Shown: positions 36,509-63,623 of the stretch, piece by piece
Layout: every line of letters begins with the position of its first letter
Position numbering within the stretch: the stretch's first letter is position 1
From: Bacteroidota bacterium
GTDB lineage: Bacteria; Bacteroidota; Bacteroidia; Chitinophagales; Chitinophagaceae
NCBI GenBank assembly: GCA_026391455.1
Contig: JAPLEH010000004.1
Location: 62,001 to 126,000 of the forward strand
Direction: 5' to 3'
Length of the DNA stretch: 64,000 nt
Program-made: the position numbers and the translations under genes
The notes under the pieces: generated by a model
The model's database searches: none
What the model was told of the DNA's origin: nothing
What the model saw: the letters and a program-made list of their open reading frames with translations, nothing else

Positions 36509-37360
36509 ATGAAAAGAAAAGGAGACTTAATTGAACTGGACAACGCTTATTTATCGAATTGGGATTCGCTGAATCAGCCGGTTCATCCACTAAAGAAGAC
36601 TATTTTAAAAGATTGGAAAGACCTTCTTGCAGCCGATTTAAAAGAAGAGGCCTATCATAAGTTTCTGTCAGAACACGCTGGTTTCTTCTTTAAACAAGAC
36701 TATCCCGATAACATCGTAATTTCAAAAATGAAGTTTGGTGCTGATTTTGTGTCGGACTTTGTGATTTGCTATGATAAAGGAAGTGATGGATTCGAATATG
36801 AGCTTATCGAGCTTGAAACACCGGCAAGCGCATTGTTTACCAAATATGATAAAATTGCAGCCCGTCTGAACAGTGCGATCCAACAAATCCAAAGCTGGAG
36901 AGCCTGGCTCCTCAAGCATTCCGGATCTATAAAAAATATCTTCCCTTCGAACAGGTATGATATCGACGGTTATCTTAACTTAAAATACACAATCATTATC
37001 GGCAAACGGGAGGCGATGAGTGATTATCAAATTAAAAGCCGAAATCTTTTAAGTGTTAATCTCGGAATCTCCATTCGCTCTTTTGATTATCTTAGTAACC
37101 TGCTGCAAAAAGGATATTTCAGAAACGAGTTCGAATTTATAAATGACATGGACAATGAAGCAGCACCATACGCCAGAGATTTCGCCAATCCGTTTTACAA
37201 GGCATATAGCGACCAGCAATGGCGGCAAATGATCAAAACGAAGGGTTTCAGTGGGGCCAATATGATTGCAAGCAATGTTAAACAGCTCATGGAATTTCGG
37301 GAGTATAATACTATCAGGTTAAACCAATTTCGGGACTATCAAAAGAAGCTACTCAAATAA
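36509..37360 (+). CDS. Shedu-like (DUF4263) anti-phage nuclease
   Basis: A 283-residue protein with the DUF4263/SduA layout. HKFLSEHAGFFF is followed by FGADFVSDFVI and YELIELETPASALFT, which gives the D...ExE/ELxxP core of a PD-(D/E)XK nuclease. Next come LNSAIQQIQSWRAWL (the conserved Q-W helix) and a beta stretch YTIIIGKREAMSD. Shedu proteins protect against phages by nuclease action; this is a single-gene system with variable N-termini. It is the first cargo gene after attL and runs 2 bp ahead of a small HTH gene. The family call is by motif, not by alignment. Confidence 0.72.
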   Translation: MKRKGDLIELDNAYLSNWDSLNQPVHPLKKTILKDWKDLLAADLKEEAYHKFLSEHAGFFFKQDYPDNIVISKMKFGADFVSDFVICYDKGSDGFEYELIELETPASALFTKYDKIAARLNSAIQQIQSWRAWLLKHSGSIKNIFPSNRYDIDGYLNLKYTIIIGKREAMSDYQIKSRNLLSVNLGISIRSFDYLSNLLQKGYFRNEFEFINDMDNEAAPYARDFANPFYKAYSDQQWRQMIKTKGFSGANMIASNVKQLMEFREYNTIRLNQFRDYQKKLLK

Positions 37361-39436: not shown

Positions 39437-40669
39437 CTAAAAGCCTTCTTTGAAATTATTTGTTAGAACACGCGATTTTTGACTTGTAGGCCAGCAAAGT
39501 TTCTCTATGTAGTCGGCATACTTCTGCATCATACCAATCCGCTGAGGCAAAAACTGCGCACGGTCATAAGCCCTATCTACACTACTTTTTGGAGCGTGGG
39601 CTAATTGACGGTCGGCAACCTCATGCGAATAGCCTAGTCTTTCTTTCAGTACTCCCAATGCAAGGGAACGGAAACCGTGACCGGTCATTCTTCGTTCGTA
39701 TCCCATTCGCCGTAGAGCCATTAAAATCGTACCCTTACTCATTGGCTTTCGGGGGTAGGGTAAACTTGGAAAGATAAACTCCCGGCCACTGGAATTCAAT
39801 TTTTGCTCCTCAAGAATTTTAATTGCTTGGATCGATAAAGGAATCACATGATCCCGTTTCATTTTCATTCTTTCCGCAGGTATGACCCATTGGGTTTTAT
39901 CAAAATCTATCTCCTGCCATTTCGCTTCAACCAATTCCCGGGTACGGACAAAGGTTAATAACATCAATCTGATTGCCAGGAATGTTTGCCGAGAAAATTT
40001 ATGTTGCGAATTGTAAAGCCGTTCGAGGAATGCCGGTAATTCATCCACTTCGATGGATGCAAAATGACCCTTACGGTATTTTTTAAGAGCAGCATCAAGA
40101 CCATATGTAGGGTCATTTGACACCTGGTCCGTGGCAATACCATACTGGAATATTTTAGAACAGTACTGCTTTACCCTCCTGGTCATTTCCGGAGCTGTGA
40201 CCTCAATTTTCCGCAAACAATTTAGCATCGAAACCGGTTTTATGGATGTTACCGGAGAGTGCTGCAGATCAGGAAAAATATATTTCTCCAACCGATACAT
40301 GATTGTTTTAGCATGACGGGGACTCCAGTTGGCAAAGTTCTTCTCATGCCATTCTTTTGCCAAATCTTCGAAACTCAATTCTGCGATAAGATTTTCCGTT
40401 TTGACTCCATTGTTTTTTTCAGGTGCCGGGTCAATCCCCTTTTTAATACCCAGCCTGAGTTCAGAACGAATAAGACGGGCCTGTGATAGGGATACTGAGG
40501 GATATATCCCAATTGTGTAACTCTTGTCATTTCCTTTGATTCTATACTTCAACCGCCAGAATTTTGTTCCTGACGGCCTTACATCAAGATAAAGGCCTTC
40601 TGAATCGTATATCTTATAAGCCTTGGCCTTTTGCTTTGCCGAGCGGCACTTCAAGTCATTCAAAGGCAT
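39437..40669 (-). CDS. P4-type tyrosine integrase (DUF4102)
   Basis: A 410-residue integrase. The N-terminal DUF4102 arm-binding domain is clear (LYLDVRPSGTKFWRLKYRIKGNDKSYTIGIYPSVSL). A core-binding domain follows (FEDLAKEWHEKNFANWSPRHAKTIMYRLEKYIFP). The catalytic domain has Arg in FVRTRELVEAKW, HGFR, LAHAPKSS and Tyr in DRAYDRAQF. P4-type integrases use tRNA genes. Here it lies 3 kb inside the left end rather than next to it, and tandem GTTACCC repeats upstream (40707-40977) look like its own arm sites. It may mark an older or nested element. Confidence 0.93.
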   Translation of the reverse strand: MPLNDLKCRSAKQKAKAYKIYDSEGLYLDVRPSGTKFWRLKYRIKGNDKSYTIGIYPSVSLSQARLIRSELRLGIKKGIDPAPEKNNGVKTENLIAELSFEDLAKEWHEKNFANWSPRHAKTIMYRLEKYIFPDLQHSPVTSIKPVSMLNCLRKIEVTAPEMTRRVKQYCSKIFQYGIATDQVSNDPTYGLDAALKKYRKGHFASIEVDELPAFLERLYNSQHKFSRQTFLAIRLMLLTFVRTRELVEAKWQEIDFDKTQWVIPAERMKMKRDHVIPLSIQAIKILEEQKLNSSGREFIFPSLPYPRKPMSKGTILMALRRMGYERRMTGHGFRSLALGVLKERLGYSHEVADRQLAHAPKSSVDRAYDRAQFLPQRIGMMQKYADYIEKLCWPTSQKSRVLTNNFKEGF

Positions 40670-41263
40670 GTCTTTTTTCTCCCTTTCTTAAGTTACGTAA
40701 ACTAAAGTTGGGTAACGCTTTCATAATCGGTCTGCCGTTACCCAAATGTTACCCAACTTTGCCGTAAATGGCCGTTAAATTGGGTATATGTTCCTAGAAG
40801 AAAAATAGCCGAAAACAGATCAAAGCATTTGAATTTGCTTGATAAATTAAGAACTGATAATATCGGGTAATTTGGTGCTTGGCTCCCTGGGCAGGACATC
40901 ATTTATTCTCCTAGTGACTTGATAATTCTTCATTTCGATTTCTTTTTAAGGACGTCGTTACCCCAACGTTACCCCAATTTTGTTATCTGTTGCAAATTTT
41001 TTAGCACAATTGACCTCGATTATCAAGCCTTATCCTACTTGCAAAAACTTCATGAAAAATTTTGCAGTTTTCGGGTAATCATCCTGCACTTGAGTTCAAA
41101 AACCTGACCCAATTTTTATCACATACATTGCAAATCATGTGAAGTAGCATTTTACAAAGGCAGATATTATTCGCTCTTATTGTAACAATCCGTTGCAGCA
41201 TATTCCTGTTGCTCAATGTTCATTAACTGCGTTTTTCGGATTGAAGATTTGAGAAAGGTTGCT
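40670..41263. other. Non-coding region upstream of the P4-type integrase
   Basis: No supported gene lies between the integrase start and the structured element at 41264. The left part carries the GTTACCC repeats (40707-40977). The right part (40980-41260) is A/T-rich with no clear signal. The att site and promoter of the left integrase may lie here but no core duplication was found. Confidence 0.6.
40707..40977. repeat. GTTACCC tandem repeats upstream of the left integrase
   Basis: Two tandem pairs are seen: GTTACCCAAAT-GTTACCCAA at 40737-40756 and GTTACCCCAAC-GTTACCCCAA at 40957-40977. An inverted copy, GTTGGGTAAC, is at 40707-40716. The units are 11 bp apart in both pairs. Their position next to the integrase start suggests arm-type binding sites and autoregulation. 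Confidence 0.65.
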
Positions 41264-41390
41264 GGTGAGTGTGCCACAATCGCTCCCTTGTTTCCAACAA
41301 TTATTTTCGCCGCCCCGTTTCACTGGTGGCTCCCCGCCCAACCAAAATAATTGCCGGATGGTCGCTTGGCTTGTGGCGTTTTCACTCCCC
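41264..41390 (+). promoter_or_regulatory. Nested-stem element, copy 1, upstream of DUF2958
   Basis: Three nested stems: GGTGAGTG (41264-41271) / CACTCCCC (41383-41390), 7 of 8 paired; GCCACAA (41273-41279) / TTGTGGC (41371-41377); CAATTATTTT (41298-41307) / AAAATAATTG (41344-41353). The loop holds CGCCGCCCCGTTTCACTGG. The element ends 33 bp before the DUF2958 start. A second copy upstream of ardC keeps the loops but changes the stems with compensation. A single-stranded-DNA promoter or structured leader RNA is inferred. Confidence 0.75.
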
Positions 41391-41423
41391 GCACTTCTCA
41401 ACCTCAACCGAAAGGAACACATC

Positions 41424-41819
41424 ATGAAACTTTTTACTAAACAACAGGAACAAAAACTGCTGGAAAACGGTTCGCCTGAACAATCAGGGCTGGATCATAT
41501 TCCGGTGGTTAAACTTTTCCTGCCCGGATCGGGATGCACTTGGTTACTGACTGAGCTTGACCCGGAATGTCCTGATATCGCATTTGGTTTATGCGATCTC
41601 GGGATGGGTTTTCCTGAACTTGGCAATGTCAGCCTTTCAGAAATCACCTCCGTGAAGAACAAGTTCGGTCTAAGCGTTGAACGTGATTTGTATTTCGAGG
41701 CAAAATATCCGATCAGCGTTTATGCTCGTGCTGCACGGGTGTATAGCAGCATCGTTGAAAGCCCTTCGGTGCTGATCACCTATGTGCCGAAGAAACGAGA
41801 CACACATCGCTTGGATTAA
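41424..41819 (+). CDS. DUF2958 protein
   Basis: A 131-residue protein that closely fits DUF2958: MKLFTKQQEQKLLENG, VVKLFLPGSGCTWLLTELDPECPDIAFGLCDLGMGFPELG (in pieces) and LSVERDLYFEAKYPISVYARAARV. The family is typical of proteobacterial plasmids and conjugative elements, near ardC and radC, with no known reaction. The start follows AAAGGA (41411-41416). A long frame from 41259 runs through the hairpin element and is not the start. A 14-bp hairpin terminator follows. Confidence 0.9.
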   Translation: MKLFTKQQEQKLLENGSPEQSGLDHIPVVKLFLPGSGCTWLLTELDPECPDIAFGLCDLGMGFPELGNVSLSEITSVKNKFGLSVERDLYFEAKYPISVYARAARVYSSIVESPSVLITYVPKKRDTHRLD

Positions 41820-41825
41820 ATCCTA

Positions 41826-41855
41826 AGAGTGCTGTTTCAGTTGAAACAGCACTCT
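41826..41855 (+). terminator. Hairpin terminator after DUF2958
   Basis: AGAGTGCTGTTTCA (41826-41839) / TGAAACAGCACTCT (41842-41855) is a perfect 14-bp inverted repeat with a 2-base spacer, followed by TTCCC. The stem is strong; the U-run is short. Confidence 0.65.
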
Positions 41856-42035
41856 TTCCCTCCAAAAGATAGTTCAATTAAACATAGATTAGACAAAAAG
41901 GTTAGGAATGATGATATAAAATCGTTTGTCGGTTGAAAATAAAAATACCATGTTTTAGGTATTTTATTTTCTGATATATACAGCAAATTGCGATGTAGTT
42001 TATTCCTACATTTTAGTACACATTCAAAACTAGTT

Positions 42036-42233
42036 ATGACCCCAAGTACAAAAATTCTACTAAAGATTTTAATCGGTAGTGCTGCTTTAGCTGCAGTTTT
42101 CGGTGTTATAGTTTGGCTCACTAATGATCATGATTTTTCAGGAGTAATAGCTGGTATCGCTGCAGCAATTGCAGGGGTTACTTTTATTGCTTTTTTGATT
42201 GCTTTGATTGTTAGTGCAGGAAAGGGAAAGTGA
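42036..42233 (+). CDS. Small two-helix membrane protein
   Basis: A 65-residue protein: STKILLKILIGSAALAAVFGVIVWL, a short polar turn (TNDHDFSG), then VIAGIAAAIAGVTFIAFLIALIVSAGKGK. Two membrane helices are clear. The ATG at 42036 is preferred to an upstream TTG. No family is recognised. A holin-like or small regulatory membrane protein is possible. Confidence 0.6.
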   Translation: MTPSTKILLKILIGSAALAAVFGVIVWLTNDHDFSGVIAGIAAAIAGVTFIAFLIALIVSAGKGK

Positions 42234-42385
42234 TTTTGATTGAAACTGTTCACTTTCAACACTACCGTATGATTTACCGTACTATGTAAATTCTATTCTG
42301 GACTTTCAGTTTAATAGAAGTTATTTATTATTTACGTAACGTGAATTATCGCCGTTCACCGGCATGATTCACCTACAACCCCCAC

Positions 42386-42434
42386 TCACCGCAAAGGCCC
42401 GCCGGTTTATCCGGTCCTTTGTCACACACGGTGA
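42386..42434 (+). promoter_or_regulatory. Bulged stem-loop upstream of the HTH gene
   Basis: TCACCG-CAAAGG (42386-42397) pairs with CCTTTG (42416-42421) and, after a 7-base bulge, CGGTGA (42429-42434). The apical part holds CCGG...CCGG. It ends 30 bp before the 42465 start, the same setting as the two nested-stem elements, though the sequence is not similar. Confidence 0.5.
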
Positions 42435-42464
42435 TCAGAACAATAATAACTAACCGGAGGTTAA

Positions 42465-42662
42465 ATGAACACACATGACTCATCCCTTGAACCCCTGCTG
42501 GACCGCAAAACGGCTGCTAAATACCTCAGCATCTCTCCTGGCACACTTGCCGTATGGGATTGCACCAAACGCTATGATCTGAGCCCGCTCAAAGTGGGTC
42601 GCTCGGTACGCTATCGCAAATCTGACCTTGATCGTTTTCTCAAACGACAATTCACCCGATAG
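42465..42662 (+). CDS. Excisionase-family HTH protein
   Basis: A 65-residue HTH protein: LLDRKTAAKYLSISPGTLAVWDCTKRYDLSPLKVGRSVRYRKSDLDRFLKRQ in pieces, the HTH_17/Xis pattern. A strong Shine-Dalgarno (CCGGAGG, 42454-42460) precedes it, unlike most host genes. It heads the primase-radC-ardC group and may act as excisionase or regulator of the transfer genes. Confidence 0.8.
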   Translation: MNTHDSSLEPLLDRKTAAKYLSISPGTLAVWDCTKRYDLSPLKVGRSVRYRKSDLDRFLKRQFTR

Positions 42663-42723
42663 CTGAATACCGTTTAAGACACACCCCGACACTTCACAAA
42701 TAAAATCACGATAGGAGTCTTCG

Positions 42724-43644
42724 ATGAACATCGAACAGGCTAAGGCCATTCCCTTGTCCATAATTCTGGAAAAAATGGGGGTCAACCCTCATACCACCAC
42801 ACCCAAACGCATCCGGTATTTATCGCCTTACCGCCCGGAGAAGACCCCGAGCTTCTTTGTCTATGCGGGTGACAATCGCTGGTATGATTACGGTGATGCG
42901 CGTGGCGGCGATGTCATTGACCTGGTGCAATGTTACCTTGAAAGCCAACAAGTAGGAGCAACAGTATCCGACGCGCTGCGCTGGCTTAAAAACATGATCG
43001 CCTATCAGCCGATCACACCAGTGTCCGTACCCGATGCCTATCCAGCCTGCGCAGGAAAAGACCAAACACTTGTATTTAAAAATGCCGAACCGCTCAAGCA
43101 TACCGGCCTGATCCGTTATGGCGAGAGCAGGGGTATCCCACCTTCAATCCTTAAACAGTATTTGGAGCAAGTCAGTTTCCTGAACCGTAATTCCGGCAAG
43201 ACACTGATTGCGCTCGGGATGCGCAACGAAAGCAAGGGTTATGATGTGCGCAACCCCAACTTCAAAGGCTGTATCCGCACCAAGGATATCAGCTTTATCC
43301 GGGGCACTATACCCAAGCCACCCGGTATTCATGTTTTCGAAGGCTTTATGGATTTTCTGAGCGTGATCACCCAGCGCAACGGCAAACCATTCGATGATGA
43401 TGCGCTGATCCTGCATTCCCTCAATTGCATGCAAAAGGGCACGGCGTATTTGCGTCACTATGGTTATGAGCAATGTTTCACCTGGTTCGATAATGACGAG
43501 CCGGGGCGCAAGGCTATCGCCGTCTGGGATGAATTCTGCAGCAATGAACCCGGCCTCAAACATATCCCGCAAAACCTGCATTACGCCCCGTATAAAGACG
43601 TCAATGCCGCGCATATGGCCAAACTTGAACTGAAAGGCTGGTAA
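42724..43644 (+). CDS. Mobile-element primase-like protein (degenerate CHC2 + TOPRIM)
   Basis: A 306-residue protein. The N-terminal part (IRYLSPYRPEKTPSFFVYAGDNRWYDYGDARGGDVIDLV) has the CHC2 primase shape but the zinc ligands are replaced. A TOPRIM domain follows, with FEGFMDFLSVI (the glutamate) and CFTWFDNDEPGRKAIAVWDE (the DxD). Such proteins in Bacteroidota elements prime replication or complementary-strand synthesis after transfer. It sits 2 bp before radC. Confidence 0.85.
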   Translation: MNIEQAKAIPLSIILEKMGVNPHTTTPKRIRYLSPYRPEKTPSFFVYAGDNRWYDYGDARGGDVIDLVQCYLESQQVGATVSDALRWLKNMIAYQPITPVSVPDAYPACAGKDQTLVFKNAEPLKHTGLIRYGESRGIPPSILKQYLEQVSFLNRNSGKTLIALGMRNESKGYDVRNPNFKGCIRTKDISFIRGTIPKPPGIHVFEGFMDFLSVITQRNGKPFDDDALILHSLNCMQKGTAYLRHYGYEQCFTWFDNDEPGRKAIAVWDEFCSNEPGLKHIPQNLHYAPYKDVNAAHMAKLELKGW

Positions 43645-43646
43645 CA

Positions 43647-44108
43647 ATGACGGCACTTAAATCACTATTCAATGTCGCGGAAATCGAACTGACCTATAAA
43701 AGCAAGGTCAAGCCCGCCGACAGGCCGAAAGTCAATTCCGTAGCCAGTGCGTATGATCTGCTGATGTCGGTCTGGGATATGAACAAGATCGAGCTCGTCG
43801 AACAATTTTATATTCTGCTGCTGGATCGGGGATCGACCTGTCTCGGTGTGTCAGAAATCTCCCGGGGTGGCGTATCGGCCTGTTTTGTCGATACCAAGAT
43901 CCTCTTTGGCACGGCCATCAAAGCAAAAGCCTCGGGGATCATCCTCGCGCATAACCACCCCAGCGGGAACCTCAAGCCCAGCCGTTTGGATGAAGCCCTG
44001 ACGCTTAAAATCATCGAAGGCGGCAAGCTGCTGGATATCGATGTGCAGGATCATTTGATCGTGACCCCGCAGAGTTATTACTCCTTCGCAGAGTATGGAT
44101 TGATGTGA
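43647..44108 (+). CDS. RadC-family JAB-domain protein
   Basis: A 153-residue RadC-like protein with the JAMM motif HNHPSGNLKPSRLD (H-x-H...S..D) and ISRGGVSACFVDTKILFGTAIKAKASGIILAHNH in pieces. The N-terminal HhH region of chromosomal RadC is absent, as is usual for the element-borne short form. Its exact role is unknown; it recurs in plasmids and genomic islands next to ardC. It starts 2 bp after the primase stop. Confidence 0.93.
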   Translation: MTALKSLFNVAEIELTYKSKVKPADRPKVNSVASAYDLLMSVWDMNKIELVEQFYILLLDRGSTCLGVSEISRGGVSACFVDTKILFGTAIKAKASGIILAHNHPSGNLKPSRLDEALTLKIIEGGKLLDIDVQDHLIVTPQSYYSFAEYGLM

Positions 44109-44186
44109 GGTCCAACCCCTGGCGGCGGGGCAGATGTGGACAGGTTTTCAAAGATCATGTGTCCGTTCAGGGGATATGTGAATCTT

Positions 44187-44320
44187 CCTGTCAGTGTTTG
44201 CCCCGGTCGCTCCCTTGCTTCCAACAAGAATTTTCGCCGCCCCGTTTCACTGGGGGCTCCCCGCCCATCCAAAATTCTTGCCGGACGGTCGCAATCCCGT
44301 GGCCGTTTCACCCTGACAGG
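44187..44320 (+). promoter_or_regulatory. Nested-stem element, copy 2, upstream of ardC
   Basis: Stems: CCTGTCAG (44187-44194) / CTGACAGG (44313-44320), all 8 paired; GCCCCGG (44200-44206) / CCGTGGC (44297-44303), 6 of 7 paired; CAAGAATTTT (44225-44234) / AAAATTCTTG (44271-44280). The loop CGCCGCCCCGTTTCACTGG matches copy 1. Downstream GAAAGGA and the ATG also align with copy 1. Two of two inner-stem changes and two of three middle-stem changes are compensated. Confidence 0.78.
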
Positions 44321-44344
44321 TTCACCTACCCGAAAGGACATCCC

Positions 44345-45241
44345 ATGACCGAAAACACCATCACTCAACCAACCGCCAATACAGTTCGTAAGGACATCCA
44401 TCAACAAATCACCGATACCATCCTGAAACAACTTGAAGCGGGTACCGTTCCCTGGCAACAGGGTTGGACAACAAAATCCACGGCGCATTGCCTGCCGCAA
44501 AATGCCATCACGGGCAAGCACTACCGGGGCATCAATATCGTATTGCTGTGGTGCGCCAGTAATGAGCATAAATTCACTTCGCATCAATGGGCCAGTTTCA
44601 AACAATGGTCGTCAGTCGGCCAATCCATCCGCAAAGGCGAGAAGGGAAATATGATTGTCTTCACCGATACCTTCGAAAAAGAGGTCGATGGTGAAATCAA
44701 GAAAATTCCGTTCCTCAAATATTCCGTTGTGTTCAACCGGTCGCAATTGGCAAAACCCGATTCCGAAGAAATCCAACCACCCGAATCAAAGGTGTTTCAG
44801 ATTGATGCCGTAGAGCGGTTTGTCAGCAATACTAATGCATTGATCAAACACCATGACGGGGACGCCTATTATCGTATTACGGAAGACACCATCTATCTGC
44901 CGCATCGTGAAAACTTTATTGATGCCGGTAAGTGTAGTGCCACCGAAAACTATTATTCCACCCTCATGCATGAGCTGACTCATTGGACGGGCCATGAATC
45001 ACGCCTGAACCGTAAAATCAAAAACAAATTCGGAAGTGCTGCCTATGCCGAAGAAGAACTGATCGCCGAACTTGGTGCTGCTTTCCTTACAGCAGAGTTT
45101 GGCATCACCATGCCTGAAAAATCAAATTCCGCGGACTATATCGCTAATTGGATTAAAGTGCTGAAAGAAAATAAGCAGTTTGTTGTGTCGGCAGCGAATG
45201 AGGCGGGTGAGGTAGTGAAATATTTGGACAATAAGAAATAA
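44345..45241 (+). CDS. ardC: ArdC-family antirestriction protein
   Basis: A 298-residue protein. The N-terminal ssDNA-binding domain has ITDTILKQLEAGTVPWQQGW, ITGKHYRGINIVLLW and SVGQSIRKGEKGNMIVF. The C-terminal zincin-like metallopeptidase has the motif HELTHWTGHESR with AEEELIAELGAAFL. ArdC proteins protect incoming conjugative DNA against host restriction. The ATG at 44345 follows GAAAGGA; the frame extends 80 codons further upstream but runs through the nested-stem element and is rejected. Confidence 0.92.
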   Translation: MTENTITQPTANTVRKDIHQQITDTILKQLEAGTVPWQQGWTTKSTAHCLPQNAITGKHYRGINIVLLWCASNEHKFTSHQWASFKQWSSVGQSIRKGEKGNMIVFTDTFEKEVDGEIKKIPFLKYSVVFNRSQLAKPDSEEIQPPESKVFQIDAVERFVSNTNALIKHHDGDAYYRITEDTIYLPHRENFIDAGKCSATENYYSTLMHELTHWTGHESRLNRKIKNKFGSAAYAEEELIAELGAAFLTAEFGITMPEKSNSADYIANWIKVLKENKQFVVSAANEAGEVVKYLDNKK

Positions 45242-46664: not shown

Positions 46665-47057
46665 TTACTCACTTATTTTCTCAAGCCTCACTTTGTTAAC
46701 TACGGAAGAATCGTTAATGAGGCCGTTGTAGCGGCTATCTTTAGCCACGAGCTGTTTTACTTCGTGATCCATAATTTGGTAATACAGTTTTTCCAGCTTG
46801 ATGCCTTCCATTGTTACCTCATGTGTTGTGAAAGCCAGAATGATTTTGTTTTCATCTGGCAGGTATTCGCCAGAGATCAGGTATGAGTAGTTCAAAAACA
46901 CCCATCTGGTATTATCAATCACAAAACAAATATTCCGGGCCTGTTCATCCGGTTCATAGAGGATGATGGATTGATCGATGGTGTCTCCATCTGGCTGGCT
47001 GGTTGTCGGATCATTCTCTTTCATCTGATCGTATTTGAGATTAAAACCCCGGTTCAT
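46665..47057 (-). CDS. Hypothetical protein downstream of the relaxase
   Basis: A 130-residue acidic protein overlapping the relaxase stop by 17 bp if the ATG at 47057 is used; a second ATG at 47024 (MKENDPTT) would avoid overlap. The chain (SIILYEPDEQARNICFVIDNTRWVFLNYSYLISGEYLPDENKIILAF in pieces) looks like a small beta-rich domain. It is last in the transfer operon. No family is recognised. Confidence 0.6.
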   Translation of the reverse strand: MNRGFNLKYDQMKENDPTTSQPDGDTIDQSIILYEPDEQARNICFVIDNTRWVFLNYSYLISGEYLPDENKIILAFTTHEVTMEGIKLEKLYYQIMDHEVKQLVAKDSRYNGLINDSSVVNKVRLEKISE

Positions 47058-49788
47058 AGTCAATGTCTTTTTGTTTGTGGGATGGATTGATTTGCTTGTG
47101 TGGTTTTGGCCCGGTTTCTTTTAGCTGGCCTGATCTTATCCTGTCTTCAACCGCTTTTTCATGTGCTGATTGTTGTGATACAAGTTCGAGGGCCGACATT
47201 CGGTTGCCAAGCTGCGAGGACTGTTCCATCAGGGCCTCTTTGTCATCGGTATAGATATTCACCGCTTCGCGGCCCCGTGATACCGATACATAAAATTGTT
47301 TCAGGTTCGTTGCCCCGAACGTGGCGGCAGGCTGCATCACAAATACCTCATCCACTGTTTTCCCCTGCGAGGCATGGCTGGTGATGCAATAGGCATGATC
47401 GATATGCCCGAATTCCGCATCAAGCCTATATCGCGCCTTGCTTTGCGGGTTGTGCAGGATAACACCGTCTTTTTTGCTCACCTTTGCCACCTGCAGCAGC
47501 ATACCGTTATTCAGCCGCTTTTCTTTTTTGTCGGTGGCATTGCGCGTGATTCGAACCATATCCCCTTTTGACAGGCCGAACCGCTTCTGGTCAAACACAT
47601 CAAAATCCCCGCTTCGTGACCGTGGAAGAATGACTTGTTTTTGCTGCTCATCCGTGAGGATCACATTCGCCCCTTCGATGCGATCCACACGCCAGCGGCT
47701 TGCCCGTTTGATGCCTTTCATGTTTTGGTTGAACTGAATGACATTCCCATGTTCATAACTACGCCAATCGCTTTTTTCAGCCTCTGTCAGGTTGCGGTTT
47801 TGGAGGCGGCATGCATCCAGTTCGCGCCGCCCGATCTTCTTTGCTTTCTTCAACCGGTCCCGTAAACGATCCGTTACCGCGCGCCCCTGATTATGGGTAG
47901 GAGAAATCACCAGGACCGATTTACGACGCTTTACCGCATCCATATAATCATCCACCAATGCGTCGGCAGGGTTGAGCGGGTCTATTGATTTGATGGAACC
48001 GAGAGATTGCAGTTTGGCGAAAGCCGATTCAACCTGACCCTTTGATAGATCACTTACCAGCTCGCGATAGCTTTCCGTTTTCTGCCTGCGGATCATAGTC
48101 ACTTCCGCCGCACGGATACCGCCCACAGTGTTGATGATCCGCAAGGCATCACCGCGCACCACACTGGAATGTTGCCTTGTATCCCCGCCCAGTATCAGCC
48201 TTGCGTTTTTCTGTGTGACGAGGGCAAGCAGGGCAGTCATGTCTTTGGTGCCAAGCAGCCCGGCTTCATCCACCCATAAAACCTGGTTCTCCAGTTTGCC
48301 TTGAAGCTCTTTATCACTAAGCAGTTTGGCCACAGTTTCCGCATCATTAAACCCATCCTGCCGCAACACACCACGCGCCGCCTGGGCTGTCGGGGCAACG
48401 GCGATCACTGTTTTTCCGGCCTGCTCCATCCAATGAGCCGCTTCTCGCATTAAAGTGGTTTTGCCCGTTCCCGCCGCACCCATTACAATCGACACCCGGT
48501 TTGATGTGGTCAGCACATGGGACACCACATCCGCCTGCTGGCCTTTTAACTCCAAAAAATCAGGGGCTGCATGATAAAGTGGAGCCATCGCCCCGATCCC
48601 TTTTTTGGCGAGGTCAACCATGTGCTTTTCTTCGGCAAGGGCTTCGCGGGTTGTACACAGGACAAGGCTGCCTCGGTTGAACCGGAGCAAGCGGTCATCG
48701 TTATGGATGGCCTCATTTACCTGCTCGATTGTTATATGGGATTGCCCAAGCGAGAACCGATAAGCGGCCTGCAGGACATCATTGACCGCCACCACCGATG
48801 CACGTTCAAAGCAATGCGACACGGCATTACTGATACATTTGTCAAGGGTGAGAGAAGGGCCCGGTTTCTCTTTTTTATGCCGGATGGGCTGATCGGTGAT
48901 TTTGTCACTGATCGGACCCGAGAGTTCTTTTAACTGCTGTCGCCACTCATGGCGAAGCTCATCCATGGAAAAACCCTTTTGTTTGCGTGAGCGTGTCTTT
49001 GCCCCCAACGCATCCAACGCTTTTGCATCCGTGATTCCCTTTTCCTTGGCCGCTTTTCCGATCTCATCGGTACGCTTTGAAAAATGCTTAATGATCCCGA
49101 CAGGAACACCTTCGATCTCAAACGAGTTATCCGTCGGTCTGATCTTGTACCCGAGATCGTTTAGACGATCCGCCAGGCGTTTATGAAACTGCTTTTGAAA
49201 ATAAGGCATCTGCCGTTTGATCTCGCGGAATTTCGCGGCCTTGAACCGTTGCTCCTGTTCGTCATATGTGGCATTGAACACAAAGCAATGCGCATGCAAA
49301 TGCGGATCGGGAAGGCTGGCCGCCACAGGCCTTGCCGTCTGGTGGGTAAAGGCCGCCCAGGCCAGTTCTCCCGTCGCCCGGTCGTCATACACGCCTTTTT
49401 GCCGGATACGCGCCATGGCCAGTTTTTCAATCCCGCCCATGGTGTCCTGAACCGAGGCTTCAAAGGCTTTTAGAATATGATCATCATTGGTGAGAGCATG
49501 AATGACCGAGACGGATTTGGGGCAGTGGAAATTGATATCGTATCCTGTGATACGGTTATCCTTGATACGCGGGGTCAGGGTGTCGCCGGTAAGGGGGTGA
49601 CGGTTTTCAACCAGTGCAAAAAACTGATCCTTGGTGGCGGGACCGGTGATCCCGAGCCGTGCGGCCAACCGGCCTTCGAAACGACCCTGCAATTCCTGGT
49701 CGCTGATATAATAATCGGACTTGACCAGCGCATCACTGAAATACGCTTTAGCCTGTTTTGCCGAATTGCTTTGGATCATCCTGATCAT
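47041..49788 (-). CDS. MOBF-family conjugative relaxase-helicase (TrwC/TraI-like)
   Basis: A 915-residue protein. The relaxase domain has candidate catalytic tyrosines near the start (AKAYFSDAL, SDYYISD), FHCPKSVSVIHAL, and the three-His metal site HLHAHCFVFN (about 160-170). The helicase part has Walker A GAAGTGKTTL (about 436-444), VDEAGLLGT, GDTRQHSSV and SHASQGKTVDEV. It nicks oriT, stays bound to the strand, and unwinds it. The ATG at 49788 (or 49779) fits the family start. MOBF is unusual in Bacteroidota. It lies last but one in a minus-strand transfer cluster. Confidence 0.93.
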   Translation of the reverse strand: MIRMIQSNSAKQAKAYFSDALVKSDYYISDQELQGRFEGRLAARLGITGPATKDQFFALVENRHPLTGDTLTPRIKDNRITGYDINFHCPKSVSVIHALTNDDHILKAFEASVQDTMGGIEKLAMARIRQKGVYDDRATGELAWAAFTHQTARPVAASLPDPHLHAHCFVFNATYDEQEQRFKAAKFREIKRQMPYFQKQFHKRLADRLNDLGYKIRPTDNSFEIEGVPVGIIKHFSKRTDEIGKAAKEKGITDAKALDALGAKTRSRKQKGFSMDELRHEWRQQLKELSGPISDKITDQPIRHKKEKPGPSLTLDKCISNAVSHCFERASVVAVNDVLQAAYRFSLGQSHITIEQVNEAIHNDDRLLRFNRGSLVLCTTREALAEEKHMVDLAKKGIGAMAPLYHAAPDFLELKGQQADVVSHVLTTSNRVSIVMGAAGTGKTTLMREAAHWMEQAGKTVIAVAPTAQAARGVLRQDGFNDAETVAKLLSDKELQGKLENQVLWVDEAGLLGTKDMTALLALVTQKNARLILGGDTRQHSSVVRGDALRIINTVGGIRAAEVTMIRRQKTESYRELVSDLSKGQVESAFAKLQSLGSIKSIDPLNPADALVDDYMDAVKRRKSVLVISPTHNQGRAVTDRLRDRLKKAKKIGRRELDACRLQNRNLTEAEKSDWRSYEHGNVIQFNQNMKGIKRASRWRVDRIEGANVILTDEQQKQVILPRSRSGDFDVFDQKRFGLSKGDMVRITRNATDKKEKRLNNGMLLQVAKVSKKDGVILHNPQSKARYRLDAEFGHIDHAYCITSHASQGKTVDEVFVMQPAATFGATNLKQFYVSVSRGREAVNIYTDDKEALMEQSSQLGNRMSALELVSQQSAHEKAVEDRIRSGQLKETGPKPHKQINPSHKQKDIDYEPGF

Positions 49789-49880
49789 GGGAAGAAGGAT
49801 AAAGCCGCTCCGGTGTTTGCCGCTGCACTTTCCGCTGCGGTTAACAACAAATAAGTGAAGCAAACTGCCGGAGCTGGCAC

Positions 49881-49958
49881 CTGAGCAGTGCTCAGAAAGT
49901 GATTAAACACCATTAAATAAAACGCATCAGACATCTGCCCTAACACTGTGTGTTAGGG
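49881..49958. other. Candidate oriT region: two perfect inverted repeats
   Basis: CTGAGCA-G-TGCTCAG (49881-49895) and CCCTAACAC-TGT-GTGTTAGGG (49938-49958) lie in the 215-bp gap between the relaxase start and the membrane protein stop. Neither is followed by a U-run, so they are not terminators. MOBF relaxases recognise a hairpin close to nic, and oriT is commonly next to the relaxase gene. No nic site can be named from sequence alone. Confidence 0.4.
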
Positions 49959-50819: not shown

Positions 50820-52319
50820 TTAGTTTTGTTTGAATGATACCTTTTTATGGTTTTGCTTGTTTTCAAAAACTTTTCCCTGCAGATGCATGATGGCTTCGGT
50901 CACATTGTTATTTAATGGGCCGCCGGTTTTGAGTTCATTAAACTCTCGTGGCTGTATCATCTTTTGCAACTCAAACGAGATGGTTTCCCCGGAGCTGAAC
51001 TCACCGGCAAGAGTGCGGGATCGCTGAACGCTTTCAGCATAGGCCTCGCCGATCAAGTCCGAGGCATAGGTATTCGTCTCCACATCAGCATTGGCGTGAA
51101 AGATCTTTGTCGCGAGTGTTCCAAGAAAACTCTTGACCCTGTATTCGGATTTGTGGCCACCCATATTGGCATAGTAGTTCGGAATATTTTGCGAGATATA
51201 GACGGTCGCAATGCGACTGCTACGGGCCGTGGCCTGGTACTCCGCATCGTACTCATGCAAAAAGTTTTGCGCCTCATCGGCCCACAGAAAAACTGGCCGA
51301 GCATTATCGTTGTTCTGTCTTCGTTCCATCGCCCGTTGCCAAACATATTTGAATAATATCTGGCTGTCGCGTCCCACCTTATGATACAGTTTGACCGGGA
51401 GGTTCAGCAGTATAATTTTGCCATCCAGCGAATCTTCAGGGATAACGGTAGATGCCCCATGACAGAACAGGGAATAAATCGGCTCCTTCAGCAGACGAAA
51501 TAAAAAACCTGCAAAGGAAAACTCGATGATGGACCGGGTTTTTTCGCTGAGGTTGCGGTAATGTTCAATAAAAAACTGATCAATCAGTTTTAAAAGTTTG
51601 GCGTCGGGCAGGGACTCTGTAATCACCAGCTCATACAGATTGGCGTCTTCTTTGCAAGAAGCCATTTGTTCCGGGCTGAGTCCCGCAAACAGATCATTAA
51701 TCTGTGTATTGACTTTTTGCTGACAAAGCCGGTAGGCATGATCGAAGCTGCCCGGACGTGATTTTTTTTCAGAGGGCTTGTCTTTTTGCGGTGCTGTTTG
51801 AACGATATCATACATGGCTTCTACGGAAACTTCCCCATAGGCCAGAAGGCAAAGATCAATAACATTGAACATCAGCATATCGAGCGCGGATTCCCAAAAT
51901 GGATCATCGCTTTTACCGCCGGATTTTTCTTCACTTGACCGGATAACGGTTTTAAGCACCTGAACGATGTTTTCCGTATAAGACACACCGCCATGGCGAC
52001 CGGAGGATTCATATTCCAGAAAATTAAACCGGTGTTCACCACCCGGTTCAATCACGATCAGATCATCAATTCGGTTCGTGGATGTGCAGTACGCTGTCCA
52101 CAACTCTTTTTCATCAGGCTTTGCCGTCAGCACAAGGCCGCCAAATCCTTTTTGCAAATAGCTTAATGCCAGTTTGCGCCCCGAGCCCGATGTCTTACCC
52201 GAGCCTATGCCGCCGAAGATTTGAACACCTTCCACCGCATCGCGTATTGTCCAGTCTGTTTTGCCTTTGTCTGATGTAAACGGTATCAGTGTTTCATCCA
52301 GTTCAAATGATTCAATCAT
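50820..52319 (-). CDS. Type IV coupling protein (TraD/TraG-like), lacking membrane anchor
   Basis: A 499-residue ATPase. Walker A is GGIGSGKTS (residues 36-44), with GFGGLVLTAKPDEKELW after it; Walker B is PVFLWADEAQNFLHEYDAEYQATARSSRIATVYISQN in pieces. The order and the alpha-helical insert fit VirD4/TraD coupling proteins that bring the relaxosome to the secretion channel. Usual members have two N-terminal membrane helices; here the protein starts about 35 residues before Walker A with none. The neighbouring membrane protein may compensate. Confidence 0.87.
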   Translation of the reverse strand: MIESFELDETLIPFTSDKGKTDWTIRDAVEGVQIFGGIGSGKTSGSGRKLALSYLQKGFGGLVLTAKPDEKELWTAYCTSTNRIDDLIVIEPGGEHRFNFLEYESSGRHGGVSYTENIVQVLKTVIRSSEEKSGGKSDDPFWESALDMLMFNVIDLCLLAYGEVSVEAMYDIVQTAPQKDKPSEKKSRPGSFDHAYRLCQQKVNTQINDLFAGLSPEQMASCKEDANLYELVITESLPDAKLLKLIDQFFIEHYRNLSEKTRSIIEFSFAGFLFRLLKEPIYSLFCHGASTVIPEDSLDGKIILLNLPVKLYHKVGRDSQILFKYVWQRAMERRQNNDNARPVFLWADEAQNFLHEYDAEYQATARSSRIATVYISQNIPNYYANMGGHKSEYRVKSFLGTLATKIFHANADVETNTYASDLIGEAYAESVQRSRTLAGEFSSGETISFELQKMIQPREFNELKTGGPLNNNVTEAIMHLQGKVFENKQNHKKVSFKQN

Positions 52320-60509: not shown

Positions 60510-61943
60510 TTAATTTTCCGCACTTGGTTTCAAGAGCTCATTTCTTAATCGATGGACTTCACCTTTATAATGTTGCAATAAATAATTCTTTTTGAGCATC
60601 AATGTCAAAAGCGGTTTTTCAACACCAAGTAATGACAGAAAGTTACACTCGAAAACCATTTTCAACATCGCGTTGAAATACCCATATTGCTCAATGTTGA
60701 TCACTGACCTGTTATTCTGGCTGTGATCATGTGCCAAAAAGTTTCGGTGTTGTGTAACTCTTTTACAAAAATCATCAATATCATAGATAAACTCATTACA
60801 CAGGTCAATGTTACTCTCAATCATTTCCTTCAACCTCGCCTTAAACGAAAGGGTATTAAAGTGAGCCATGCACTCCAGGGCTTTGGGCCGAAATTCTTCA
60901 TCCAGCTTTTGAATTGCTTCTTTTTTCTGTTTCTTGAATTCAGTGTATTTTTCTACAGCAAACTGGGAGTGATCAAAATAAGTGTTGTGGAGTGTTTCAA
61001 GTGCAAAAACCGTGTTCAGAAATTGTTGTATCGGAGTTGGCAGCTTAAGTTGTTTTGTCTGCAAATAGAGGAGTAACCCACTTTGAAGTACAGTCTCGTT
61101 ATTTATCCATTTCTGAAAACAATTTTGAAAGACTGGGGCTATTTCCGTATATTTTATCAACACATCATATCCTTCCATTTGCCTTTTTGAGCTTTGTGCC
61201 GGATCGGAAAAAAGCAAGTCAAAATCGACCTGATCATTCTTCTCATCTTTCGTAAACACCGAAGCGGCATTAAAGGAAATCTTTTGGAATGAGAAGAAAG
61301 TAAAGAAATCTCTGTAAAAGTTTAGTTTTCGGATTATATCACCGGTTCCGAAGGGTTCGTCAAAAAAGATATTCAAATAAACTTTTTCCTGTATCGATAT
61401 CGTGTCAAAAATTGAGCTTAGTCCTTTAACCTGATAACTGAATTTAAAATAGACATGCACCTCACTATCAATAACATCTATCGGGGGTGCCTCGGTATAA
61501 GAAATTCGACCACCTGTTTCAGTGTGCTCAAGGTGTGGAACAGGTCTGAAGAATTGAAAAAAGGCAGCAAAGAAATTCGTGTTGAAGTTAATCCCAAAAA
61601 CCGGCATATCCTGAGTTGCAAAATAACCTTTAGAATTCAACAGGGCAAATTCAGCCGAAACGTTTGTTGTTATCCAACTATCCTGGCCAAATTCATTTAC
61701 TTCAAGATAGTATAAAGCAACGTTTTGGCCATCATTAAGGACCCCACACAAGTAATCAACCTTTAAGTAATTAACGGCCCTCAAGATACTAGTTGTCCCA
61801 TAAAAGCTACCCTCAATTGACAGTTGGATTCCTTTATCGGGGGAATAAGTCATATCTCCATACAAACCTTCTTTCTCAGTTTTTCCAAGTGCTGGGATCC
61901 ACCATCGTCCTTTAATCGAGAACTCGTTTAAAAAGTCAAGCAT
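60510..61943 (-). CDS. ApeA-like HEPN anti-phage protein
   Basis: A 477-residue protein. The N-terminal half matches the ApeA N-terminal domain (FSIKGRWWIPALGKTEKEG, LYGDMTYSPDKGIQLSIEGSFYG). The C-terminal half is an Apea-like HEPN domain with the ribonuclease motif RNFLAH (R-N-x3-H, residues about 399-404) and flanking helices. ApeA is a single-gene HEPN system that blocks phage growth, presumably by RNA cleavage. The ATG at 61943 is used; a TTG two codons earlier is less likely. Its start overlaps the end of the upstream broken ORF, suggesting an original two-gene operon. Confidence 0.75.
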   Translation of the reverse strand: MLDFLNEFSIKGRWWIPALGKTEKEGLYGDMTYSPDKGIQLSIEGSFYGTTSILRAVNYLKVDYLCGVLNDGQNVALYYLEVNEFGQDSWITTNVSAEFALLNSKGYFATQDMPVFGINFNTNFFAAFFQFFRPVPHLEHTETGGRISYTEAPPIDVIDSEVHVYFKFSYQVKGLSSIFDTISIQEKVYLNIFFDEPFGTGDIIRKLNFYRDFFTFFSFQKISFNAASVFTKDEKNDQVDFDLLFSDPAQSSKRQMEGYDVLIKYTEIAPVFQNCFQKWINNETVLQSGLLLYLQTKQLKLPTPIQQFLNTVFALETLHNTYFDHSQFAVEKYTEFKKQKKEAIQKLDEEFRPKALECMAHFNTLSFKARLKEMIESNIDLCNEFIYDIDDFCKRVTQHRNFLAHDHSQNNRSVINIEQYGYFNAMLKMVFECNFLSLLGVEKPLLTLMLKKNYLLQHYKGEVHRLRNELLKPSAEN

Positions 61944-62136
61944 TGTCAAGTTTTTGTTGGCTATTTGATTTTTTAGTTATCACCCTGGCAATTACACTAT
62001 ATCCTCCAATTGCATTGCTTGCATATGATTTCCCAATAAGTGCAGTATCCTCATTGGAGGACTCTTTAATCTCAATATACTTTTTCCTTTTTTGTAACGG
62101 TATTTGTAAAAATGTTTCAAGGATTTCGTCGTCAGA
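61936..62136 (-). pseudogene. In-frame continuation of the 62137-62367 gene after a TAA stop
   Basis: Directly after the TAA at 62139-62137, the same frame stays open for 66 codons, from SDDEILETFLQI through SVIARVITKKSNSQ to a TGA at 61938-61936. It has no ATG, GTG or TTG before its final part and reads like real protein. Its end overlaps the apeA start by 8 bp. Best explanation: one gene of about 142 codons, interrupted by a nonsense mutation; read-through or a non-canonical start are alternatives. Confidence 0.55.
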
Positions 62137-62374: not shown

Positions 62375-63586
62375 CTAACTGAGATTCAGCACAGCCTCCA
62401 GCGCATCATCGGCATCTTTGTGGATGAAGTTTTGTTGATAGCCGATTGTGGTCGTGATGGATGAATGGCGGTAGAGCTTCTGCAGCATTTGGATCGGAAT
62501 CTTATCCCCTGAAATATTCCCAAACGTATGCCGGGCAATATGCATGGTCAGTTTCTTGTCAATACCAGCCTCGGGAGCTACATGAAGCCTTAGACATTTA
62601 TCAGTTGCGCTAGTCCTGAAGGCAATCGTTCTTTGAGTTTTAAACGCATTATCAAAGTCACAGCCCTTCAGGTCAGGAAAGATCAGATCGTCTTTGTTTT
62701 CCCGAAACTGTTTGTATTGTTCAAGAATAGCAAGGGCCTTGGCCGGTATCTTGAGTGAGCCGCCTTTATTGTTCTTTCCCATGGAATAATGCAGCCGGTC
62801 ATTCTGTAAATCGGACCAGCGCAGGCGAAATACATCAGAAACCCTCATGCCAGCAAAATAAAAAGAAGTAAGCCACAGATTACGTGCATGGTTGTGTGTA
62901 GGGTCGGGCAGGGCGACGTCTTCCAGTTTCTTTACCTCTTCAGATGATAACCCGACTTTCACACTATCCGGGAATTTGATTTTCATCTTGCCTTTGCCAA
63001 ACGGGTAATACTTGGCATCGATCATATTATCCTTGATCGCATGGCTAAAGACCGACCGCACCATCACGATGGCGTTGACCGCACTCCGTTCGCTCAGGTT
63101 GCGGGTTGATTTGATATAGGCCTTGAACCGTTCCAGCATCACCGGCGTAATGTCCTGGAAGGCAATATCGTGACCGATAAATTCTTTGAAGTGTTTTACG
63201 CGCGGCTTGTCGGAAGTATATTGATTGTACTTTCCCGCCTGCTTTAGTTTTTCCAGATAGGCATCAGCCTGTGCAAAGAAGGTCTGACCAGAAGAAGGCT
63301 TGATTTTATTTTTTACCAATTTTGCATTGACATGAGCCTTATTTGTTTCAAGCTCCAGTGTGCTATCTGTGGCTTCAGATAATTTTTTTATCAGAAAGTT
63401 ATTCAGCCTGACGTGGTTCGGAAAAGACCTTTTTACACGTTGAGCTCTGGAATCCCAATCCCCCGGCTTTAGTGCATAGCCAAGATGTATGAAACTTGTT
63501 TTTCTATCTTTGGTAATCCTAAGACAAAGGGGAAGGGTTCCGTCTTTATTCGGCTTTTGACGAAGCACTGCTTTGATCGTTGACAT
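62375..63586 (-). CDS. Tyrosine integrase of the element
   Basis: A 403-residue phage-type integrase of the Bacteroidota form. It has an N-terminal arm-binding region (KAVLRQKPNKDGTLPLCLRITKDRKTSFIHLGY in part) and a SAM-like core-binding domain (DAYLEKLKQAG; FKEFIGHDIAFQDITPVMLERFKAYIKS). The catalytic residues are Arg in FAGMRVSDVFRL, HIARHTF (H-x-x-R), LYRHSSITTT (H) and Tyr in TIGYQ. It lies 139 bp from the attR core with a tandem arm repeat between, matching one next to attL, so it is the enzyme that inserted the element. The ATG at 63586 is used. Confidence 0.95.
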   Translation of the reverse strand: MSTIKAVLRQKPNKDGTLPLCLRITKDRKTSFIHLGYALKPGDWDSRAQRVKRSFPNHVRLNNFLIKKLSEATDSTLELETNKAHVNAKLVKNKIKPSSGQTFFAQADAYLEKLKQAGKYNQYTSDKPRVKHFKEFIGHDIAFQDITPVMLERFKAYIKSTRNLSERSAVNAIVMVRSVFSHAIKDNMIDAKYYPFGKGKMKIKFPDSVKVGLSSEEVKKLEDVALPDPTHNHARNLWLTSFYFAGMRVSDVFRLRWSDLQNDRLHYSMGKNNKGGSLKIPAKALAILEQYKQFRENKDDLIFPDLKGCDFDNAFKTQRTIAFRTSATDKCLRLHVAPEAGIDKKLTMHIARHTFGNISGDKIPIQMLQKLYRHSSITTTIGYQQNFIHKDADDALEAVLNLS

Positions 63587-63600
63587 GTTGTACCTCTCGA

Positions 63601-63623
63601 TTTGGTACAACATAGGTACAACA
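63601..63623 (+). repeat. Right integrase arm-site repeat
   Basis: Identical to 36417-36439, with the tandem GGTACAACA units. An inverted TGTTGTACC lies at 63585-63593, overlapping the integrase start codon, so Int binding here would also repress its own gene. Nothing else recognisable lies between this repeat and attR. Confidence 0.75.

Follow-up and report, generated by a model that had tools for sequence, protein, structure and literature searches.

Template-strand hairpin elements upstream of ardC, DUF2958 and DUF736-type genes, a covarying family and candidate for expression from single-stranded DNA

How the genes of the leading region are expressed early outside the F-like and ColIb-like plasmids is the question raised by a 64,000-nt stretch of a Bacteroidota genome (GenBank assembly GCA_026391455.1, contig JAPLEH010000004.1, positions 62,001 to 126,000), the whole of which is called the window here. 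Two structured elements lie in it, one before a gene encoding a DUF2958 protein (copy 1, 41258-41400) and the other before ardC (copy 2, 44187-44326), and in both cases the folded strand is the minus strand. Computational comparison placed them in a family whose members covary, fold in the strand that templates the downstream gene, stand ahead of a limited set of genes and lie on the same strand as the recognised or predicted nicking site (nic). The best reading of these sequence data is that the elements are probably expression sites resembling Frpo, from which the adjoining gene would be transcribed on single-stranded DNA (ssDNA).

Two copies in the window, their relatives and the covariation of the stems

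The two copies share an ungapped 97-nt repeat of 88% identity (41269-41365 and 44196-44292), which represents their common core. Within it, the core hairpin occupies 41293-41358 in copy 1 (arms 41293-41307 and 41344-41358) and 44220-44285 in copy 2 (arms 44220-44234 and 44271-44285), on the minus strand. A first-pass annotation, made from the window alone, had described two elements of about 130 nt with differing stems, and their positions, the compensated differences of the inner stem and the middle stem (two changes compensated and one position mismatched in copy 2) were all confirmed. The outer stem that it had proposed held for copy 2, where pairing is clear (CCTGTCAG/CTGACAGG; equalled in 4 of 100 shuffles), and was weak for copy 1 in an ungapped test (57 of 100); summed over 16 relatives, this stem exceeds shuffles (136 versus 106.3). 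When folded with RNA parameters, the plus strand was matched by 5 of 200 dinucleotide shuffles for copy 1 and 0 of 200 for copy 2, and the minus strand by 0 and 1 of 200, respectively.

Regarding relatives in the same phylum, a BLAST search with copy 2 against plasmids gave no match, and exact sequence patterns found nothing in viral contigs or genome contigs. Across 296 genomes of the phylum, BLAST returned, apart from the source genome, a single short match (L004, E 7.6e-4); it lies inside an open reading frame (ORF) of 550 aa and was taken for chance. The Bacteroidota relatives were reached only via relaxase searches combined with a covariance model. The relaxase search yielded five relatives at E ≤ 1e-50 among 395 genomes, the source genome included, and 80 loci in further genomes. 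The covariance model R1, built from the two window copies as the first-pass annotation had suggested for a check, located an element ahead of ardC in three of the five relaxase relatives (E 5e-9, 7.5e-8 and 3e-5), with a 75-aa ORF between element and ardC in L023; another of the five, the Runella plasmid L015, gave no R1 match, and the search of the source genome yielded the two window copies only. R1 was also scanned over 59 loci (L022-L080, comprising 54 of the 80 relaxase loci and five more stretches), and it then detected the element in Runella, Spirosoma, Dyadobacter, Niastella, Flavihumibacter, Flavipsychrobacter and other Bacteroidota records. A second model, R2, was built from 16 Bacteroidota-type sequences and run over 72 sources, which covered 59 of the 80 relaxase loci. 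At E ≤ 0.001 it matched 16 of the 72 sources, namely the window, 13 loci, a Bryobacteraceae metagenome-assembled genome (L069) and a Variovorax plasmid (L010). Over the 395 phylum genomes, R2 gave strong matches in four, the source genome included; weak matches in G094 and G111 (E 0.004-0.006) were left uncounted.

The family extends to proteobacterial plasmids, where the Variovorax element is found by BLAST in 42 plasmid records, its own included, and an Ensifer-family copy in 154. R2 matched all nine plasmid loci drawn from the 42-record list (L113-L121), in each case on the template strand; five of the matches reach E ≤ 0.001, and the other four have values of 0.003-0.035. A third model, R3, built from 11 proteobacterial sequences, recovered two of seven Bacteroidota-type sources (L034, E 7e-4; L024, E 0.001), as well as L069 at E 0.026, and matched at least 105 of 247 genomes in the family of G450, the genome with the Ensifer adhaerens locus L086. 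Because R2 and R3 each match members of the other group, the Bacteroidota-type and proteobacterial groups are taken for homologous. The range of the family thus covers Bacteroidota, alpha-, beta- and gamma-proteobacterial plasmids and one Acidobacteriota contig; one query against phages gave no match. Some plasmids carry several copies, for example four in pAoF64/95 and three in p1METDI, each set on one strand. Plasmid R388 was rejected as an R3 member, its weak match (E 0.0072) lying on the strand opposite to the one that the model needs. A separate observation concerns the Variovorax plasmid, in which four consecutive DUF2958 genes occupy positions 3995-6790 of L010, with small HTH genes in two of the gaps.

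Selection for a fold, which had been proposed from the two window copies, is borne out by covariation at homologous sites in 16 Bacteroidota-type sequences and in 39 mostly rhizobial R3-type sequences (alignment A8, from 36 sources and including the doubtful R388 match as a row). In the former, pairing holds in 92.3% of 441 cells, compared with 71.9% for shuffles and no more than 49.9% after sliding; both sides are altered in 22 of 31 pairs, and covariation scores 0.458 versus 0.148. In the latter, 88.1% of 822 cells are paired versus 66.2% in shuffles and at most 58.6% when slid, with a covariation score of 0.532 versus 0.201. Additionally, RNAalifold returned 22 pairs, 12 of them changed on both sides, from an alignment of 11 sequences made from sequence only (A7). 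Read on the folded strand, the common core consists of AGCGNA, ATTTTG (or AATTTG), GCGNGAGGA or GGGCGGGGA, a small variable hairpin and GNGAAAAT. Inverted repeats that precede genes frequently serve as operators, and a double-stranded protein-binding site, or plain inverted repeats, would fit the location; however, the stem sequences vary and the pairing is maintained, and we give this explanation almost no credence.

The folded strand and the genes that follow

The first-pass annotation had drawn the fold on the coding strand, and this had to be revised, as the evidence points instead to the template strand. In both window copies, and before any model was built, the minus strand forms a far more stable fold than the plus strand (-59.2 versus -45.1 and -57.9 versus -47.9 kcal/mol with RNA parameters), a difference that had gone unremarked and that arises because CCGGC/GTTGG forms G-U pairs on the minus strand. 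The template strand is lower in energy in all 16 Bacteroidota-type sequences with RNA and DNA parameters alike, and in the R3-type sequences in 38 of 39 with RNA and 37 of 39 with DNA parameters. In the model-fitted alignments, the template strand shows 40 G-T versus 6 A-C pairs in the 16 sequences and 128 versus 9 in the 39. In a sequence-only alignment of the 16, the alifold value is -23.2 for the template strand (58 G-T, 4 A-C) versus -9.4 for the coding strand (4 G-T, 7 A-C). The G-T excess is concentrated in the inner stem at two adjacent pairs, in which T is constant on the 3' arm and the 5' arm has either G or A; of the 32 cells at these positions, 20 form G-U pairs when read on the minus strand and would be A-C mismatches on the plus strand, and one position carries a conserved G-U in 35 of the 39 R3-type sequences.

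These data bear on two explanations at the RNA level. A structured leader of the ardC or DUF2958 message (riboswitch, thermometer or attenuator) on the plus strand would agree with the element's place directly upstream of the Shine-Dalgarno sequence (SD), and the plus strand does fold to some degree. However, it is the worse-folding strand in all 16 and in 38 of 39 sequences (RNA parameters), and its inner stem carries the A-C mismatches just described, which leaves such a leader very improbable. The other explanation is an antisense RNA, in which case established cells would transcribe the minus strand, and the folded transcript would repress the ardC, DUF736 or DUF2958 message. The minus strand is indeed the structured one, and conserved G-U pairs, such as that in 35 of 39 sequences, are common in RNAs. 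Nevertheless, a sense-strand A-run of four or more is absent within 31 nt at the folded strand's 3' end in 68 of 68 elements, so that there is no intrinsic-terminator tail there, and Rfam 15 gave no listed match over any element in the window, L010 or nine further loci. An antisense RNA would also leave the agreement with the nic strand (see below) unexplained, and we regard it as improbable.

When considering the genes downstream, the position before DUF2958 and ardC was as first described. The ATG of the DUF2958 gene (41424-41819, plus strand; 131 aa, PF11171) lies 23 nt past copy 1, and that of ardC (44345-45241, plus strand; 298 aa, ArdcN and zincin metallopeptidase) 18 nt past copy 2, the GAAAGGA context being situated between element end and ATG in both. 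Across the family, 62 of 68 elements precede an ORF of at least 45 aa with SD and ATG for which the folded strand is the template. The distance from element to ATG is 15-24 nt in 13 of 14 cases in the Bacteroidota group and 52-60 nt in 29 of the remaining 48. Five gene clusters account for 56 of the 62 downstream ORFs: DUF736-type (27), ArdC (11), a 57-aa peptide (10), DUF2958 (5) and a three-member cluster of one protein type, one case of which matches a SLOG family below Pfam's cut-off; the other six are singletons. Pfam assignments of the clusters were made from representatives. Six elements have no such ORF, and tblastn places ardC after three of them (L028, L031 and L032). The 57-aa peptide family has no Pfam match; it follows 10 of the 68 elements (e.g., L144 1684-1854, plus strand), and in pSmeSM11b it is found near traG-traD-traC. 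ArdC of R388 is required on the recipient side, whereas the donor does not need it (PMC7213743). DUF2958 can be called a candidate anti-defence protein through guilt by association only.

Strand agreement with recognised or predicted nic and oriT sites

At MOBQ sites, the transferred strand (T-strand) is predicted from sequence, with the cut position and polarity usual for this class. In p1METDI and pSmeSM11b, the minus strand carries a MOBQ-like nic in the interval separating traC from traA; it also carries the elements, towards which the T-strand would run from nic. The MOBQ consensus for the origin of transfer (oriT) is quoted in PMC3832669, and the relaxases of pTi and rhizobial plasmids belong to MOBQ2 (PMC6856555). 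The nic pattern TAAKTGCGCCCTTG gave 32 matches in 28 of the 247 Ensifer-family genomes. Among the matches listed, 14 of the 32 have an element within 40 kb on the same contig. Every one of these 14 has its nearest element 3.5-10.4 kb downstream and on the strand that carries nic; all element-nic pairs listed are downstream (16 of 16), and 15 of 16 are on the same strand.

For the MobF group, to which the window's relaxase belongs, BLAST conservation did not reveal an oriT. Shared 9-mers in the non-coding DNA of 19 MobF loci led to one relaxase-adjacent site, composed of a hairpin followed by GGGAAGATGTCTGATG. In the window, this candidate oriT is located at 49920-49958 on the minus strand (hairpin CCCTAACACACAGTGTTAGGG, then CAGATGTCT/GATG, the slash marking the cut), and nic is predicted between 49929 and 49928. 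The same hairpin-then-nic layout occurs in R388 (GGTGCG-TATTGTCT/ATAG) and F (TTTTTGC-GTGGGGTGT/GG), with the cut points usual for these plasmids, and the nick strand and point of the MobF group are predicted by analogy with these two. L112, L010 and the plasmid loci stood outside the motif test, which took in 15 element-bearing MobF loci; 13 of these 15 bear the oriT-like motif, 11 at up to two mismatches and two at three. The 13 loci hold 15 elements, every one of which shares the strand of the motif and lies 2.7-13.5 kb downstream of it. This relation is kept in L036, in which the relaxase gene is inverted, and in L038, in which ardC is divergent from the relaxase gene; therefore, element orientation is tied to the oriT-like motif and not to the relaxase gene. 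On a wider scale, the motif occurs at up to two mismatches in 25 of the 59 loci L022-L080, the window has it with one mismatch, and it is also present in records titled Planctomycetota and Verrucomicrobiota.

Proposed function, known systems and gene surroundings

We propose that these structured sites, lying in the T-strand of conjugative and mobilizable elements, would form no hairpin in the double-stranded state. As the T-strand enters the recipient 5' end first, the element would fold into a long imperfect hairpin situated, on the T-strand, just 3' of the complement of the ardC, DUF2958 or DUF736 start region. The folded duplex would be recognised, most simply by the host RNA polymerase, which would exit at the hairpin base and copy the single-stranded template, and the protective gene would be expressed ahead of second-strand synthesis. 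That synthesis would in turn abolish the hairpin and switch expression off. The Frpo-like role put forward in the first-pass annotation is thereby retained in part: the folded strand is the template and the predicted T-strand downstream of oriT, which is consistent with such a role, while membership in the Frpo sequence family was not upheld, F being unmatched and promoter hexamers unenriched. A covariance-defined element offers a handle for finding the genes acting first in recipients across several phyla, suggests testable functions in establishment or anti-defence for DUF736, DUF2958 and the 57-aa peptide, and predicts T-strand polarity and an oriT motif for a MobF group.

Several observations weigh against this reading or limit it. 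In the 27-kb part of F at 45000-72000, the best R2 match has E 0.91 and lies at oriT, and R3 has none at E 0.01. The -35/-10-like hexamers (TTGACA/TATAAT) in the non-template arm are at shuffle level, with 119 versus 117.4 in the 16 sequences and 221 versus 244.1 in the 39. As for the fold, DNA parameters give only a modest excess over shuffles in the window copies (5, 9, 8 and 2 of 200 equal), and both-side changes in A8 (17 of 22 pairs) were equalled in 5 of 500 shuffles. R1-R3 were built on the minus strand by choice, alignments A5 and A8 were fitted to models, and the rows of the sequence-only alignment of 16 were themselves collected with models; the rejected R388 row is still among the 39 of A8 and enters the covariation, strand and hexamer counts. 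R3 misses five of the seven Bacteroidota-type sources given to it (the window, L022, L023, L036 and L112), 45 of the 59 relaxase loci L022-L080 have no element within the stretch examined, and at least three downstream ORFs look out of frame (L119_4856, L170_1501 and L144_376). Regarding the transferred strand, one of the 16 listed element-nic pairs is opposite-strand (G546), and so are 3 of 22 neighbouring element pairs among the matches listed. The 14 nic cases are not independent events, since the replicons are related, and they were identified by nic sequence alone. The MobF oriT motif is a prediction of this analysis; two of the 15 loci lack it (L039 and L069), L024 and L063 match only with three mismatches, and L063 does so at two places, of which the relaxase-adjacent one was taken. 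A canonical promoter within the hairpin was considered separately, as TTGG-N16/17-TAnnnT can be seen by eye in some copies, and was dropped because the shuffle test gave no enrichment.

The main rival is a single-strand initiation site (ssi), in which the T-strand hairpin would recruit a primase, a primosome or, for primer synthesis only, RNA polymerase, and the neighbouring genes would be incidental. Such a site accounts for the T-strand folding, the leading-region place and the missing sigma70 hexamers; a primase-like gene is present within the same window block, and the title of Masai and Arai 1997 has Frpo doing both. In contrast, an origin would not need the placement seen here, with several copies per mobile element, 62 of 68 before an SD-ATG, near-constant spacing among the Bacteroidota-type members (15-24 nt in 13 of 14) and 56 of 62 ahead of five gene clusters, and we consider an ssi unlikely. 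Beyond the Frpo-like expression element, a wider generalisation is held tentatively, and we lean slightly away from it: the family may constitute a cross-phylum class of single-strand-activated elements without sigma70-type -35/-10 sequences, the polymerase being drawn by hairpin shape, the internal loop (GCGNGAGGA / GGGG) and the nearly invariant AT stem, and may serve as a general entry programme of non-enterobacterial conjugative elements for DUF736-type, ardC, DUF2958 and 57-aa peptide genes.

When compared to known systems, the elements resemble Frpo/ssi of F and ColIb-P9 in being T-strand hairpins, with the T-strand as template and copies before leading-region or anti-defence genes (PMC11541004). 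Unlike Frpo, the present family has no R2 or R3 match in the F leading region, shows sigma70-type hexamers not above chance, and stands mainly before DUF736-type, ardC and DUF2958 genes in Bacteroidota, Pseudomonadota and one Acidobacteriota contig. We know of no counterpart in Frpo to its conserved core ATTTTG..GCGNGAGGA..GGGGAAAAT. Similarly, EGeRS1 of the Bacillus pLS20 family is a conserved, inverted-repeat-rich region repeated before establishment genes including ardC; it is 400-600 bp long with a non-template transferred strand, whereas the present elements are about 130 nt long with a predicted template transferred strand, and its authors considered an ssDNA-promoter role highly unlikely, the non-template transferred strand being one reason (PMC8708921). 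Samuel et al. 2024, in describing Frpo' and Frpo*, likewise sought T-strand promoters upstream of leading-region genes and located Frpo by BLAST and a -35/-10/UP consensus (PMC11541004), searches that would be expected to miss the present family; a 2026 paper located Frpo by BLAST (PMC12826799). DUF2958 and ArdC are absent from the main texts of both papers. In RP4, zygotic induction has been reported, with no single-stranded promoters identified (PMC7314908). A literature search found nothing tying DUF736 or DUF2958 to inverted repeats and ssDNA; most subscription papers and all supplements were outside that search, and an earlier description is possible.

Regarding the surroundings in the window, the DUF2958 gene opens a plus-strand block that continues with genes encoding an HTH_17 protein (42465-42662), a toprim/CHC2-type primase-like protein (42724-43644), a RadC-like JAB protein (43647-44108) and ArdC. 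A tblastn match to the HTH_17 protein was found in 10 of 13 Bacteroidota-type loci with the element. This block faces a minus-strand set that includes the MobF (TrwC/TraI-type) relaxase-helicase (47041-49863) and a TraD/TraG-type coupling protein (50820-52319). No type IV secretion gene besides the coupling protein was seen among the 20 window ORFs put to Pfam, and the mobile element of the window may therefore be mobilizable. A perfect, terminator-like 15-bp inverted repeat follows right after the DUF2958 stop (41825-41856), and a small minus-strand ORF (46665-47063) overlaps the 3' end of the relaxase gene, with similar-sized ORFs at that place in L022, L023 and L024. Near the mobile element, possible defence genes encode a Shedu-like SduA_C protein (36509-37360, plus strand) and a protein with ApeA NTD1 and HEPN domains (60510-61949, minus strand). 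Finally, two tyrosine integrases with differing domains are encoded on the minus strand, one with Arm-DNA-bind_3 (39437-40669) and the other with Arm-DNA-bind_5 (62375-63613).

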